Shown here piece after piece: positions 1 through 6,435 of a DNA stretch of 64,000 nucleotides (positions are counted from its first letter, which is position 1; the number at the start of each line of letters is the position of its first letter). Position numbers and translations under genes: made by a program. A model generated the notes under the pieces. The model was not told the DNA's origin. It searched no databases and saw only the letters and a program-made list of their open reading frames with translations. Origin of the DNA: an uncultured Nodularia sp. (lineage in GTDB: Bacteria; Cyanobacteriota; Cyanobacteriia; Cyanobacteriales; Nostocaceae); the NCBI GenBank assembly GCA_903911355.1, contig CAIWDD010000001.1, positions 186,001-250,000 on the forward strand, written 5' to 3'.

Positions 1-2
1 AA

Positions 3-28
3 AGGTAGAGAAAAATTATTCTCTACCT
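3..28 (-). terminator. Possible terminator of the DNA methyltransferase gene
   Basis: A perfect 10-bp inverted repeat (AGGTAGAGAA / TTCTCTACCT) with a 6-nt loop lies about 54 bases past the methyltransferase stop codon. On the minus strand it runs into T residues, but the window edge cuts off the rest of any T-run. It could also be a bidirectional terminator or a repeat. Confidence 0.45.
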
Positions 29-81
29 CTTATTTGAATAATTTAAAATATTTGATAATTTCCTTTATAATGAGTGTGAAA

Positions 82-975
82 TTATGTTGTAGTATTCGCC
101 TCAAAAATATTACTTTTTATCACATCCAAATTTAATTCTTGACCATTCTTATTTTTAACCTGATGATTTTTCTGAGGTGGTAAAAGTTCCTCTCCTTTAT
201 ATTCTAGTAATTCTAAAACCCGTCTCAAACCAATTTTTAAATATTCTTCCTGTAGTTCAATACTGATAGATTTTCTCCCTAATCGTTTAGCTACCGCAGC
301 AGTTGTAAAAGTACCAGCAAAGGGGTCAAGTATTAAACTTCCCTCATGACTACTTGCTAAAATAATTCTTTCTAGTAATGACTCCGGTTTTTGTGAAGGA
401 TGGTTTTCATATTCCGCCATGCGATATCTCACACGGGGAAAATACCAAGCATTACCGGGTACTTTTTCCGCATTATAAGGAGTAGGTACAGATTTTCTGT
501 AATCGATTAATTTACGTTCTGCGCCTGTTTTGGCGGCAATTTTAATATTATCACTATTAAAAATATAATTGTTTTTATTTTTGACGCAATGGAGAATGGG
601 TTCATACATTGAACCAAAGTATTTTGTAGCTTGTACTCCGGAGCTATCATAATGCCATATGATGCGACTGAGAATAGTTAACTTTTTTCTCAGGTAAATG
701 TCAAAATAAGGCATTGCTTGGGTGCTAGTCATGAGATAAATTGTCCCATTTGGTTTGAGAATGCGAATACACTGATCAAGCCATTGATATGACCAATTTA
801 AATATTCTGCTTCTGATTCCCATTTATCATGGAAATTGCTAAATTTCTTACCTATGTTATAGGGAGGATCAATAAAGATTAAATCTACGGAATCTGTAGG
901 AATATATTTTGATAAGGTGCTGATAGTATCACCATGAAAAATGGTATGTTGTTGATTTTGGTAGCGCTCAATCAT
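82..975 (-). CDS. DNA methyltransferase, beta-class (adenine- or cytosine-N4-specific)
   Basis: Predicted S-adenosylmethionine-dependent DNA amino-methyltransferase acting on a short target. The catalytic motif DPPYN is near the N terminus (residues 36-40) and the SAM-binding motif LDPFAGTFTT is near residue 215, so motif IV precedes motif I: the beta-class order. The SAM loop reads AGTF where AGTG/GSGT is usual. I start at the ATG at 975 because AAGGA sits 5 nt before it; an in-frame ATG at 999 would add 8 residues without a ribosome-binding site. No restriction endonuclease is visible to its right; the left side is outside the window. It may be an orphan regulatory methylase or half of a restriction-modification pair. 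Specificity cannot be read from the sequence. Confidence 0.85.
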   Translation of the reverse strand: MIERYQNQQHTIFHGDTISTLSKYIPTDSVDLIFIDPPYNIGKKFSNFHDKWESEAEYLNWSYQWLDQCIRILKPNGTIYLMTSTQAMPYFDIYLRKKLTILSRIIWHYDSSGVQATKYFGSMYEPILHCVKNKNNYIFNSDNIKIAAKTGAERKLIDYRKSVPTPYNAEKVPGNAWYFPRVRYRMAEYENHPSQKPESLLERIILASSHEGSLILDPFAGTFTTAAVAKRLGRKSISIELQEEYLKIGLRRVLELLEYKGEELLPPQKNHQVKNKNGQELNLDVIKSNIFEANTTT

Positions 976-1120
976 AATTATCCTTGACAACTTTACCATG
1001 TTTACATAAACATACGTGAAAAACTTTAGGTAAGAATTAATTCTCTACCACTTCAGTCCTTTGTACGTGATGTTAAATAAAAGCTATACCCAGCAAACTG
1101 CTGCTTGTTAACCAACTAAT

Positions 1121-1390
1121 TCACACTAACTCAGCAGCTAAAAGCCTACCTTGGACTGGTTCATACTCATCTTCCAGTAACCATAACTTAGCAGCTTCAT
1201 AATTATGACTAGAAAATATAACCTTATCACCCTGTTTGGGATCATAAATTTGACAGTTTCCCTCACTGTCGCAAAGCAATAAAAGAATATATGGAGGTGA
1301 TAACATCGGATCAATCCATACTTCTGTAAATTCCCAGTTATTCTTTACTAGGTCTGGTGCGGGGGATGACGTGGTATTGGTTGTCTGCAT
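1121..1390 (-). CDS. Small conserved cyanobacterial protein, 89 aa, unknown function
   Basis: No catalytic motif or membrane segment. The core, from about residue 17, has alternating hydrophobic strands (YILLLLCD...QIYDP...VIFSS) followed by an acidic helix ending EAAKLWLLEDEYE. I recall similar small proteins in Nostoc-type genomes, often beside the kind of gene that precedes it here, but I know no function. Its start lies inside the 3' end of the upstream gene, with a 53-nt overlap in a different frame, so the two are almost certainly co-transcribed and probably translationally coupled. A toxin-antitoxin or effector-immunity pair is possible but not shown. Confidence 0.6.
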   Translation of the reverse strand: MQTTNTTSSPAPDLVKNNWEFTEVWIDPMLSPPYILLLLCDSEGNCQIYDPKQGDKVIFSSHNYEAAKLWLLEDEYEPVQGRLLAAELV

Positions 1391-1682
1391 TGATTTTCAT
1401 CTCGCCATAGTAAAGTGGAACACGGCTACCATCTGGACTAATTCTATAACCTATTGGTTCAGTAAAAAACATTCCATAACGTTCATATTGTCGAATGGTG
1501 CCGATAAACTCGCCTTCTTCTATTATGCACTGTGCAACTTGATTCATCGTATTTTGATCATTAAACACATGAGCAGCGATTCCTTTTTTCAGAAGTCTTT
1601 GCATTTGGGGTGTTCCTGGTAAGTGCTTGGTAATATGTCTAAGGTCAAGGACTATTTGACGATTAATTAAATTTGATTTCAT
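1338..1682 (-). CDS. Small cyanobacterial protein resembling the DUF6972 family, 114 aa
   Basis: The pattern LRHITKHLPGTPQMQRLL... then HVFNDQNTMNQVA...GEFIG...YERYGMFFTEPIGYRI matches, as far as I remember, a cyanobacterial family annotated as DUF6972; the family name is recall, not a search. The conserved Arg, His and Tyr positions and compact alpha/beta pattern would suit a small RNase-like or binding domain, but this is conjecture. It is the first gene of a two-gene overlapping unit (53-nt overlap with the 89-aa gene). No signal peptide. The upstream flank holds a predicted terminator and a MITE-like element, so this is an accessory patch. Confidence 0.6.
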   Translation of the reverse strand: MKSNLINRQIVLDLRHITKHLPGTPQMQRLLKKGIAAHVFNDQNTMNQVAQCIIEEGEFIGTIRQYERYGMFFTEPIGYRISPDGSRVPLYYGEMKINADNQYHVIPRTRPSKE

Positions 1683-1833
1683 TTAATTTTTACAGCCTAA
1701 GTTGACATAACAAACTTACTGATGTGTAGATATCGGGCAAAATGCTATACATGGGACAAGCCCGTTATGATAGGTAGTGATACTACTATTGGAATGTCAA
1801 AAAGTATGACTTATATTACCGCTTCATTGACAT

Positions 1834-1859
1834 AAAAAAATCTCCCACACACTAGGAGA
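1834..1859 (-). terminator. Rho-independent terminator, minus strand, with no gene upstream
   Basis: On the minus strand a stem TCTCC / GGAGA with a 9-nt loop is followed directly by seven T residues. No minus-strand gene lies between this site and the clpC terminator near 2.9 kb. The only visible source of transcription toward it is the outward promoter in the left end of the MITE-like element at 1987-2015. Confidence 0.5.
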
Positions 1860-1986
1860 AATGAAAATGTCAGCGATTATGACCTTGTGGTACCTAAGCT
1901 GTGACTATATCTTTTATTGTTATGATTGCCTCTGCTATCCCTTTATAAAATTGACTTTATACATTTATCTTTACTAATTGTTGTAG

Positions 1987-2015
1987 TTTATAATGACACT
2001 CTGACGGGGTGACAA
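1987..2015 (-). promoter_or_regulatory. Outward promoter in the left end of the MITE-like element
   Basis: On the minus strand TTGTCA (complement of 2015-2010), a 17-bp spacer and TATAAA (1992-1987) form a near-consensus sigma-70 promoter. It would start a leftward transcript near position 1975-1980, toward the terminator at 1834-1859. Confidence 0.5.
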
Positions 2016-2247
2016 AAACCTTTGAATTAAATACGCAGCAAGGGTTTTGAAGGTTTGCGCCTTGAAAAAGTAAACATCATTTTCTGGCTTTATTGATTCT
2101 ATTCTCAATAACTAAACCCCACAAGTCTCATTTTTATGTTGGAATAGGTTTCCAATTTGTTTTAATCTTTTCAAGGCTGACTCTTTCATAATCCTTATTC
2201 CATAATGGTTTGAGCCTAAGTTGTCACCCCTTCAGAATGACACTATA
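1989..2247. mobile_element. MITE-like element, 259 bp, with 27-bp terminal inverted repeats
   Basis: The ends at 1989-2015 and 2221-2247 are inverted copies that match at 23 of 27 positions, both including the block GGGGTGACAA. The element carries no reading frame of note, which fits a non-autonomous miniature element. The outermost bases are TATA on both sides, so a TA target duplication is possible but cannot be proven from one copy. Each end contains a full sigma-70-type promoter pointing outward (listed separately). The family is not recognised. Confidence 0.6.
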
Positions 2248-2249
2248 AT
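2221..2249 (+). promoter_or_regulatory. Outward promoter in the right end of the MITE-like element
   Basis: TTGTCA at 2221-2226, a 17-bp spacer and a perfect TATAAT at 2244-2249 form a strong sigma-70-type promoter. It faces the 188-aa gene that starts 42 bases downstream and is the only obvious promoter for it. Confidence 0.55.
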
Positions 2250-2290
2250 AGCATAATAAAGTTATACATAGATAATTCATTGAAATTATA

Positions 2291-2857
2291 ATGTACAAAA
2301 TTTACAAAATTGATGCCAAAGAAAAAGAAACAGTTTTAATACAACTCAAACCGAAGAATAGCTGGCGGCGTATCACATATGCTGTGGTATCTGAAAAACT
2401 ACATAATACAGCAAATGAAATTTTGTACAAAAGAGGATTGTATTTTTTAGACTACCTCAATTTTATTTCTGATGACAAAAGTACAAAATTTGTTTTACTG
2501 ACACAAGATGAAACAGTGCAGGAATTAATTTCCAGCCTTTTGGATAAAGATACTTCTTATTTAAGATGCTCTCATTACGTTTTTGCAGGTACGTCTTGGA
2601 TTCCGTCTATTAAACAATTCGCTCTAGAATTTCCTGAACTCCATGAAATACTATTAGACCGTATTAAGCCTGAAAGTGATTTTAGTGTTGACATTGAAGA
2701 TACTACTATCGAGGATTGGTATGAACCAGATTACGGATATCACAGACCACAAACAAAGCTGGAGTATTATGGGTATGAACCAGATTACGAACTTCCTATA
2801 GATCAAGCTGAACGACTTTATGGAATACCTGATCCGAGATTAGTTGAAGATGACTAG
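2291..2857 (+). CDS. Hypothetical protein, 188 aa, with duplicated YEPDY motif
   Basis: I do not recognise this protein. It is soluble, with no signal peptide or membrane segment. Residues 1-130 look like a mixed alpha/beta domain; the C-terminal third is acidic and rich in Tyr and Pro, with two related segments, WYEPDYGYH near 143-151 and GYEPDYELP near 161-169. No Shine-Dalgarno sequence precedes the ATG. Its presumed promoter lies in the right end of the MITE-like element just upstream, so the element may have changed or supplied its expression. The AT-rich coding sequence and lack of neighbours fit an accessory gene. Confidence 0.6.
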   Translation: MYKIYKIDAKEKETVLIQLKPKNSWRRITYAVVSEKLHNTANEILYKRGLYFLDYLNFISDDKSTKFVLLTQDETVQELISSLLDKDTSYLRCSHYVFAGTSWIPSIKQFALEFPELHEILLDRIKPESDFSVDIEDTTIEDWYEPDYGYHRPQTKLEYYGYEPDYELPIDQAERLYGIPDPRLVEDD

Positions 2858-2903
2858 TCCATAACAAAACCCTCCTTCCTTTCTCTTACACCTGGTGCTT
2901 CAC

Positions 2904-2937
2904 AAAAAAAACGGTAGAGAACGGAAATTCCCCACCG
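2904..2937 (-). terminator. Rho-independent terminator of clpC
   Basis: On the minus strand a 10-bp stem (CGGTGGGGAA / TTCTCTACCG, two G-T pairs) with a 6-nt loop is followed by eight T residues, 26 bases after the clpC stop codon. Confidence 0.8.
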
Positions 2938-2962
2938 CTGATTTCAGTTTGATAATTTCTAA

Positions 2963-5455
2963 CTAGGAATCAACACCCTGAGTTAATAACTCGCGGCGCT
3001 GTTCAGCACTAACTTGAACGTTACCACTCTCGTCAACATCAACTAAGGCGGTATCACCATCCTTAATGCGACCAGAGAGAATTTCTTCAGCTAGGCTATC
3101 TTCTAACAAGCGCATGATAGCTCGACGTAATGGCCTAGCGCCGTAGCTGGGACTGTAACCCTCTTGAATCAGTCTGTCCTTAAAGCGATCGCTCACCTCT
3201 AAAGTGATACCCTTTTCAGTCAGACGACCAAATACTTCCTTGAGCATGATTTCGGCAATTTCGGTCACCTCAACCTTACTCAATTGACGGAAGACGATAA
3301 TTTCATCCAGACGGTTGAGGAATTCAGGACGGAAGTACTGCTTGAGTTCTTCATTAACCAGAGAGCGAATGCGGTTGTATTGAGTCTCAGTCGCATCATC
3401 AGCGAATTCAAAGCCGATACCGCCGCCGCCTTTTTCAATTACCTTAGAACCTATGTTAGAAGTCAGAATTAACAAAGTGTTCTTAAAGTCCACCGTTCGA
3501 CCTTTCGCATCTGTTAACCGTCCGTCTTCGAGAATTTGCAGCAGCATATTGAAGACATCGGGGTGAGCTTTTTCGATTTCGTCGAATAGCACCACAGTAT
3601 AGGGTCGGCGACGCACAGCTTCAGTTAACTGACCGCCTTCGTTGTAACCAACATAACCAGGAGGCGAACCAATCAACTTACTAACGGTGTGGCGTTCCAT
3701 GTATTCCGACATATCCAGGCGAATCATTGCTTCTTCAGAACCGAAGAAGTAGGAAGCCAAGGACTTAGCCAACTCAGTTTTACCCACCCCAGTTGGACCG
3801 GAGAAGACAAAACTAGCGATGGGTCGATTGGGATTCTTCAAACCGACACGAGCGCGGCGAATGGCACGGGAAACAGCTTTGACCGCATCTTCTTGACCGA
3901 TTAACCGCTGATGTAAGGTATCTTCCATGTGCAGCAGCTTTTCGGATTCTGATTCCGTGAGCTTGTTCACTGGTACGCCAGTCCAGGAAGCCACAATGTG
4001 AGCAATGTCCTCTTCGCCGACTACAGGCTCAACCGCTGGGCCCCGGGTGCTATCACTTGGGCTGGTAGAGGTATTAGTTTTACCTTGGGCGATGGCGCGA
4101 ATTTCGGCTTTGATTTCCATTTCGCGATCGCGCAGTTCCCCGGCTTTATCAAAGTCTTGAGAGCGGACAGCTTCGTCTTTTTCTTTTAAGATTTGCCGTA
4201 GTTCTTTGTCTAACTCTTTAGCTGCGGGTGGTAATTGGGAGTTCATTAAACGTACCCTAGAACCAGCCTCGTCAATTAAATCGATAGCCTTATCTGGTAG
4301 ATAGCGATCGCTAATGTAACGGTCAGATAATTTTGCCGCCGCCACCAAAGCCTCATCAGAGATTTTCAGCTTGTGGTGTTGCTCATAGCGTTCGCGCAAC
4401 CCGTGCAGGATTTCAATGGTTTCATCTACAGAAGGTTCTCCCACCATCACCGGTTGGAAGCGTCGCTCTAGGGCTGCATCTCGCTCAATGTGCTTGCGGT
4501 ACTCATCTAAAGTAGTAGCGCCAATACACTGTAACTCACCCCTAGCCAAAGCCGGCTTGAGGATATTAGCTGCATCAATAGCCCCTTCTGCAGCACCAGC
4601 ACCGATGAGAGTGTGTACCTCGTCAATTACCAGGATGACATTACCCGCCGAGCGGATTTCATCCATGATTTTCTTGAGGCGTTCTTCAAACTCACCCCGG
4701 TACTTGGTACCTGCTACTAGCAAGCCGATATCTAGGGTTACTACCCGCTTATCTTCTAGGATGTCGGGAACATCCCTGTTAGCTATGCGGGATGCTAGAC
4801 CTTCGGCGATCGCTGTTTTCCCTACCCCTGGTTCACCGATTAATACTGGATTATTTTTAGTCCGGCGGCCCAAAATTTGGATCACCCGCTCAATTTCTTT
4901 AGCGCGTCCTACAACTGGGTCTAGCTTGTTGTCCGTCGCCATTTGGGTTAAGTTCGAGCCAAACTCATCCAAGGTGGGAGTTTTGGTGCGTCCCGATGGC
5001 CCTGTGGCTGAAACCTCTGCTGTTTCTCCGAGCATTCGGATCACTTGGGTTCGTACCTTAGATAAATCTACCCCTAGGTTTTCTAGCACCCTGGCTGCTA
5101 CACCTTCCCCTTCCCGGATCAGGCCCAACAGCAGATGCTCGGTGCCAATGTAGTTATGCCCTAATTGGCGCGCTTCTTCCAAGGATAGCTCTAGTACACG
5201 CTTTGCCCGTGGCGTAAACGGAATTTCCACGGCCACAAAGCCCGAACCCCGGCCTATGATTTTTTCTACCTCAATCCGGGCATCTTTGAGATTGACACCC
5301 ATTGATTTCAACACTTTAGCCGCAACTCCCGTACCTTCCCCAATCAGACCTAGGAGGATCTGTTCGGTTCCCACGAAGTTGTGACCTAAGCGGCGGGCCT
5401 CTTCTTGGGCCAGCATGATTACCTTAATGGCTTTTTCTGTGAAGCGTTCAAACAT
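2963..5455 (-). CDS. clpC: ATP-dependent Clp protease ATP-binding subunit ClpC (Hsp100)
   Basis: AAA+ unfoldase that feeds substrates to the ClpP/ClpR peptidase and also acts as a chaperone. The order is complete: two N-terminal Clp repeats (residues 1-150; [14 protein letters not shown] and [14 protein letters not shown]), AAA-1 with Walker A GEPGVGKT, a coiled-coil/UVR middle region, AAA-2 with Walker A GPTGVGKT and Walker [12 protein letters not shown], and a C-terminal D2-small domain. The product is 830 aa from MFERFTEK, the universal ClpC start; an in-frame ATG 16 codons upstream is not conserved in the family. It is monocistronic, with its own terminator and a 422-bp upstream region. 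Nothing is missing. Confidence 0.97.
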
Positions 5456-5877
5456 GGCATTTTTCCCATCACCTGCGTCGTGCCGGTATGCTGATTTTAG
5501 CACAGGCTCTGCTTTTGGATGCCTGTATAAAGATTATAGGCCACGAAAAAATTTCGCCCCACATCCTGGCTTAATTGTTAGTTTTTTATTACTTGTTTTA
5601 TGGTTGCTATACTTAGGAGCTTGATTTTACTAGTGTTTCCCTGCTTTACAACTATCCAGCAAGCCGCTATGCTTAGGCTTTTATTTAACTATTTCCAAAT
5701 ATAGACTTATAACATACTTATCAGTCTCTATTCAAGAATATGCTGGAATAATAATTTATTTTAACTTTAAAAAAGTTATTGATTAAATATTTTAATATTA
5801 CATGGCAGCAAAAACATAAATTTTTTCTGGCTAATGTGATGCTCATCCCGGTTTAGCTAGGCATAATCACCCATGAG
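5456..5877. other. Intergenic region upstream of clpC
   Basis: AT-rich spacer between the 3' end of rimI and the start of clpC, both on the minus strand. It should hold the clpC promoter. I see no CIRCE-type inverted repeat, RNA gene or coding sequence in it. Confidence 0.5.
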
Positions 5878-6435
5878 TCAACCCATTTGCCAAAAAGATT
5901 TCCTTAACCCATAGACCACAGTAGTATGCCAATTCTCCAAAGTTTCTGCAAATTGGGGAGATTGTAAATCTGACAGCCACAACACTAGAGCATCCTCTCC
6001 ATTATCCTGGTAATAACCCCGCCGCCGTCCGGCTATCTTAAAGCCAAATTTTTCATATAAGGATATGGCCGCCAAATTAGAAGCGCGGACTTCCAGGGTG
6101 GCCCGCTCCAGTCCGCGATCGCTTGCGGTTTGAAGTAGAGAATACAGTAAAGCCTGTCCCAAACCTTGACGGTGATATTGGGGATGAATTGCCAAAATTG
6201 TAATGTGTGCCTCTTCTAAGATTGCCCAAAAGCACCCCATTCCTAGCAGTTTTGACCCATAAACTGGGGAAAATAAACCTAATAATTCACTGTTGGGACT
6301 GTTTAACTCTCGTTGATAGCCATCCATAGTCCACAGACCGCCAAAACAGGCTTGATCTAGTTCCAGGATGGCAGTTAGATCATTTAAAGTCAGGGATTTC
6401 AGTTTTAAGTCTAATAAGATCACGTTAATGGCCAA
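5878..6435 (-). CDS. rimI: Ribosomal protein S18-alanine N-acetyltransferase RimI
   Basis: GNAT-fold acetyltransferase that uses acetyl-CoA to acetylate a protein N terminus; in enteric bacteria the target is ribosomal protein S18. The acetyl-CoA loop HPQYHRQGLGQALL (Q/RxxGxG/A) and the following helix are intact, and RimI hallmarks LEVRASNLAAISLYEKFGFK and RRGYYQDNGEDALVL are present. The length (185 aa) is slightly above the usual 150-180, with a short C-terminal tail after the core. It is divergent from lysA across a 173-bp spacer. The true bacterial target in cyanobacteria is not settled, so substrate assignment is by family only. Confidence 0.9.
   Translation of the reverse strand: MAINVILLDLKLKSLTLNDLTAILELDQACFGGLWTMDGYQRELNSPNSELLGLFSPVYGSKLLGMGCFWAILEEAHITILAIHPQYHRQGLGQALLYSLLQTASDRGLERATLEVRASNLAAISLYEKFGFKIAGRRRGYYQDNGEDALVLWLSDLQSPQFAETLENWHTTVVYGLRKSFWQMG

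Follow-up and report, generated by a model that had tools for sequence, protein, structure and literature searches.

A gene-less MITE with IS4-family ends and outward promoter-like signals in a Nodularia contig

A 64,000-nucleotide stretch of DNA from an uncultured Nodularia sp., here called the window, contains a short element with a promoter-like signal pointing outward from each of its ends. The original prediction took it for a MITE-like mobile element with a complete promoter in each end. The locus thus raises the question of where these signals come from: are they carried by the element, are they made by the site in which it landed, or are they a chance feature of AT-rich DNA?

Boundaries, copies and family of the element

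The boundaries were set by a target duplication and by comparison with other copies. The features are:

2001-2235, plus strand: gene-less MITE of 235 bp, its extent matched to within one base by copies in the genome and in relatives
2001-2015, plus strand: left terminal inverted repeat, CTGACGGGGTGACAA, from the sequence and the copies
2221-2235, minus strand: right terminal inverted repeat, CTGAAGGGGTGACAA in minus-strand reading, identical to the left repeat at 14 of 15 positions
1992-2000: left copy of the 9-bp target duplication AATGACACT, read from the sequence
2236-2244: right copy of the same duplication, AATGACACT, read from the sequence

The two copies of the duplication are identical at 9/9 positions. 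The element had been placed at 1987-2249 with inverted ends of 27 bp. The sequence features described there are real, and an inverted repeat is present (1988-2015 against 2221-2248, 28 nt, 86% complementary), but the boundaries were wrong: the terminal repeat proper is 15 bp, and the bases beyond it belong to the duplication and the host flank. The repeat looks longer because the pre-insertion site was near-palindromic (TTATA-ATGACAC-TATAA) and imitates extra repeat. Correcting the boundaries to 2001-2235 therefore changes the meaning of the features. A single ORF of at least 40 codons, 44 codons long, overlaps the element.

The genome itself holds three copies, and the other two align to 2001-2235 within one base. 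Two copies in the sole sampled genome of the same genus give an alignment that covers this interval within one base and stops there. Among these four other copies, two lie beside 9/9 duplications, ACCAAACTA and GGATGTTTT, and a third has the duplication AGCTTTTCC; none was found beside the own-genome copy L003. L003 (contig 5 of its genome) and L076, from the same-genus genome, have a common right flank and different left flanks. L003 is probably an older insertion that was later rearranged.

With fragments and the own genome counted, MITE matches were present in 11 of 60 sampled genomes and in 32 of 217 Nostocaceae genomes. Searches of plasmid and phage collections gave no match at E <= 1e-5. 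After exclusion of fragments without two recognisable ends, 36 delimited copies were obtained; the duplication is 9/9 in 22 of them, at least 8/9 in 26 and 7/9 or less in 10. The inverted ends are more than chance, as 25 further delimited copies, at other sites, have such ends together with a duplication of 8-9/9.

The element is absent from the same locus in two relatives. In Dolichospermum planctonicum NIES-80 (L065) and Anabaena catenula FACHB-362 (L066), a gap of 92-95 bp separates the conserved blocks that enclose the element in the window, where the gap is 367-371 bp; the element is therefore missing from both. The DNA between the blocks is diverged and poorly conserved in both, and the alignment does not fix the exact insertion base.

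Full-length partners with such ends and 9/9 duplications were found in three genomes of the same family, 1270 bp long in G019 and 1272 bp in G032 and G027, their ends beginning CTGANGGGG. Two IS copies in G021 have no matching duplication. The G019 transposase matches DDE_Tnp_1 (PF01609) above the cut-off and belongs to the IS4 family (NF033591, 301 bits against a cut-off of 152); what we take to be its YREK signature is readable in the translation. Comparison with solved structures gave no meaningful match. Relatives of this transposase are present in 49 of 60 genomes, and Nostocales plasmids carry relatives annotated as IS4. The own draft genome yielded no intact partner transposase; its single 79-residue match to the G019 transposase lies in a remnant of about 272 bp that shares 80.5% identity with the end of the G032 IS.

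The MITE interior is not recognisable as part of any of the four tested ISs. Among 16 subterminal comparisons, that of the right end with G019 was matched by 4/300 shuffles; for the other 15, at least 33/300 shuffles were as good. With high confidence, the element at 2001-2235 is identified as a non-autonomous MITE whose ends are those of an IS4-family insertion sequence. It could be mobilised by IS4-family transposases, because the full-length partners share its ends and the 9-bp duplications. Its ends, duplication, copies, empty sites and full-length partners together uphold the mobile-element part of the original prediction.

Other MITEs of 221-244 bp have such ends and different interiors (L164, L169, L171 and L193-L198 in G110; also L165 in G121 and L166, L170 and L172 in G196); they are multi-copy in G110 and G196. 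In G021 several copies of the window MITE are about 259 bp long (L018, 1502-1760). Short stretches in many Nostocaceae genomes match query positions ~170-209, with identities of roughly 80-97%, which suggests that these longer copies contain a separate short dispersed repeat.

Promoter-like signals and the neighbouring ORFs

The MITE sits between an ORF starting at 1682 on the minus strand and an ORF starting at 2291 on the plus strand. The signals and their surroundings are:

2221-2226, plus strand: -35-like TTGTCA in the right terminal repeat, from a promoter scan
2244-2249, plus strand: -10-like TATAAT outside the element, formed by the last duplication base and five host bases
2010-2015, minus strand: -35-like TTGTCA in the left terminal repeat, from the sequence
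1987-1992, minus strand: -10-like TATAAA outside the element, formed by one duplication base and five host bases
2291-2857, plus strand: ORF of 188 aa downstream of the putative right hybrid promoter, from the ORF listing and from homologue and profile searches
1841-1859, minus strand: terminator-like hairpin and T run that faces leftward transcription

The right signal (2221-2249, plus strand) reads TTGTCA-17-TATAAT, an 11/12 match. The left signal, on the minus strand, has TTGTCA at 2015-2010, 17 bp, and TATAAA at 1992-1987. The motifs, their spacing and their outward direction were therefore read at both ends as the prediction had them. The claim of a complete promoter in each end did not survive the new boundaries, as both -10 boxes lie outside 2001-2235 and a copy that inserted elsewhere would bring along only a -35.

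It is thus extremely improbable that the element itself carries complete outward promoters. The window copy does have -35, 17 bp and -10 at both ends, but the 9-bp duplication and the other copies put the -10 boxes outside the element, and 67 of 72 ends, eight of them without a recognisable -35, lack a -10 of at least 5/6 at 16-18 bp. Promoters complete within the element were rejected because of this boundary. In the first 46 ends the -35 is TTGTCA in 29, TCGTCA in 15 and TTGCCA in 2; in the larger set 8/72 ends have none of the three. A -10 of at least 5/6 at 16-18 bp is found at 5/72 ends of the 36 delimited copies, and two of these five belong to the window copy. In the first 23 copies good -10 boxes were not enriched over 16-18 bp (3/46 ends at 5/6 or better, with 0-5 at other offsets). 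The paired arrangement is one of fusion promoters made by the site and not carried by the element, because the -10 boxes are outside and are rarely good across the other ends. A landed MITE whose ends contain -35 boxes thus accounts for the striking double-promoter pattern.

Whether such a fusion promoter is active is a separate matter. A fusion promoter toward ORF 2291 is plausible, and the chance that the right-hand hybrid promoter works is put at a little under even. Judged nearly as probable as not is a second reading, in which the arrangement is an inert, chance by-product of landing in AT-rich DNA and ORF 2291 uses another start. The surrounding 1.5 kb has no excess of promoter-like sites over shuffles (7 against 6.4, sd 2.3), a -10 of at least 5/6 at one of three spacings is available to 8% of local intergenic positions, and another site, a 10/12 match, lies at 2263-2292. 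Against the chance reading, none of the other six sites matches as well as the right one (11/12 at a spacing of 17 bp), and the stretch upstream of the ORF in L065 (2350-2510) has no promoter-like site where 1.2 would be expected from shuffles.

In a third reading the element acts chiefly at the RNA level, as a hairpin within transcripts that run across it, and not as a promoter donor. The window copy folds at -64.6 kcal/mol (z = -5.0), but inverted ends by themselves would lead one to expect a terminal hairpin. In the RNAalifold consensus of 19 copies, most of the 20 pairs belong to the terminal stem and 2 show two-sided change, and an Rfam search of 1-6000 gave no match at the gathering score. 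A conserved RNA signal is weakly indicated by the sequences, and the RNA-level reading is quite unlikely.

The -10 of the putative fusion promoter on the right ends 41 bp before the ATG at 2291. The downstream gene is not an orphan. Pfam and NCBIfam searches with the 188-aa ORF gave no match at E <= 0.001, and relatives were found at this threshold in 7 of 217 genomes, the own genome included; the two other full-length relatives, in L065 and L066, are about 70% identical. In G092 (L034) and G222 (L036) the last 43 and 34 codons of the ORF match, beside the same downstream DNA, and these remnants look like decay. In G155 (L035) 37 codons match within a longer open frame.

Activation of the left flank, the other half of the predicted effect, is doubtful. 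The minus-strand hairpin at 1859-1841 lies upstream of the ORF starting at 1682, between it and the putative transcription start, and L065 and L066 have a similar stretch in the alignment.

Bases outside the target duplication

Target statistics were computed for 26 copies (52 ends); 10 of the 36 delimited copies were left out with duplications below 8/9. Eleven of 49 loci were likewise left out (L187, L177, L179, L183, L171, L196, L172, L209, L199, L202 and L207). Reading outward, the first base outside the duplication is A at 33/52 ends (p 2e-6, uncorrected for the positions tried), the second is C or T at 36/52, the third A at 30/52 and the fourth A at 27/52. These A-Y-A-A bases correspond to positions 2-5 of a -10 box at 17-bp spacing, and the preference therefore gives more -10 matches when the spacing is exactly 17 bp. 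There the match to TATAAT averages 2.73, against 1.71-2.29 at the 19 other spacings; ends that match TATAAT at 4/6 or better number 16/52 against 1-10. In these 26 copies the -10 signal is visible only at exactly 17 bp, and good boxes are rare even there (at least 5/6 at 5/52 ends).

The bias does not depend on the window copy, without which the mean at 17 bp is 2.62, a value reached by 2/5000 shuffles. It is seen at the left ends alone (mean 2.65, 16/5000 shuffles) and at the right ends alone (2.81, 0/5000). Ten copies have the first outer A at both ends, 13 have it at one end and 3 at neither. Copies closer to the window copy, with the window copy itself omitted (24 ends), gave a mean of 2.58 (p 0.037) and at least 4/6 at 5/24 ends (p 0.18); among those farther from it (26 ends) the mean was 2.65 (p 0.0004), with at least 4/6 at 9/26 ends.

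A replication with four new sites (8 ends), a set too small for the purpose, showed no bias, with a mean of 1.62 and 0/8 ends at 4/6 or better; three of the four look like orthologues, or repeat readings, of sites in the existing count. In L262, L271, L277 and L278, which were picked by eye from 30 loci and have duplications of 7/9, 10, 9 and 10 bp, the first outer base is A at 6/8 ends. An additional search covering 14 genomes turned up no new two-ended copy.

Other elements with such ends behave differently. Full-length ISs (19 sites, 38 ends) prefer T outside the duplication, and their -10 matches peak weakly at 18 bp; for other MITEs (10 sites, 20 ends) the peak is at 19 bp, and a set of more distant ISs (9 sites, 18 ends) shows none at 17. 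The 17-bp bias is therefore not general.

The outer-base bias, detected and tested in the same data, is read as probable target choice and not as selection for one promoter, because both ends show it. A stronger proposal is that the target choice (T-T-R-T, 9 bp, A-Y-A-A) is tuned to promoter building, its outer bases sitting at the -10; this is considered unlikely. The corollary of such tuning, a tendency of insertion to create sigma-70 promoters that face outward at both ends, is similarly unlikely. Independent confirmation of the target bias would make this family a clean case in which to ask if the site preference of a transposase raises the chance that insertions switch on neighbours; for the Correia elements of Neisseria this has been suggested (PMC9330008).

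Anatomy, family and absence in relatives are directly established; from them we infer mobilisation in trans and promoter function in the following course of events. Most likely an IS4-family transposase that was once present moved the MITE in trans into AT-rich, near-palindromic intergenic DNA between the ORFs at 1682 and 2291. The insertion set the TTGTCA of the right end 17 bp from a host TATAAT, and the resulting hybrid promoter would probably add transcription of ORF 2291. The left end gained the same arrangement, and its transcript should stop at the hairpin. The doubling of the arrangement stems from the landing site, perhaps aided by the family-level A-Y-A-A preference.

Comparison with known systems

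The fusion-promoter principle is already known; the element itself is newly described. Among the literature matches listed, titles and abstract openings mention no such IS4-type MITE of Nostocaceae. IS4-family ISs of the Nostocales resemble the window MITE in their ends and 9-bp duplications; the partners are about 1270 bp long, whereas the window element has neither a transposase nor a recognisable IS interior. ISAsp10 of Anabaena sp. 90, of the IS10 subgroup of IS4 and 1270 bp long (PMC3542288, table 2), is likened to the partners by its description there and not by sequence.

For many IS families, among them IS1, IS2, IS5, IS6, IS21, IS30, IS256 and IS982, fusion promoters are described in which the terminal repeat supplies the -35 (PMC9330008). 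They share with the window MITE an outward -35 in the terminal repeat and a -10 supplied by the host; raised expression has been demonstrated for these ISs (PMC9330008), whereas the present case is a gene-less element known from its sequence.

A parallel in design is described for the Correia elements (CREE) of Neisseria. These are also short and gene-less, with a -35 inside and a -10 completed by the site, and a target preference that resembles a -10 box, as in the window MITE family (PMC2649163, PMC9330008). The -10 of the CREE Black promoter is completed by the insertion site (PMC2649163), and the target preference is described as raising the chance of fusion promoters (PMC9330008). There are two differences. 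First, part of the -10 of the Black promoter lies within the element, whereas the window MITE has no -10 base inside. Second, CREE use TA or similar short target sites, whereas the window MITE makes a 9-bp duplication (PMC2649163, PMC9330008).

Nezha and the MITEs of Anabaena sp. 90 are likewise short, gene-less, inverted-repeat elements of cyanobacteria (PMC3733652, PMC10969869, PMC3542288), compared here by description and not by sequence. The Anabaena sp. 90 MITEs are described as type II, with ends unlike those of the ISs in that genome (PMC3542288).
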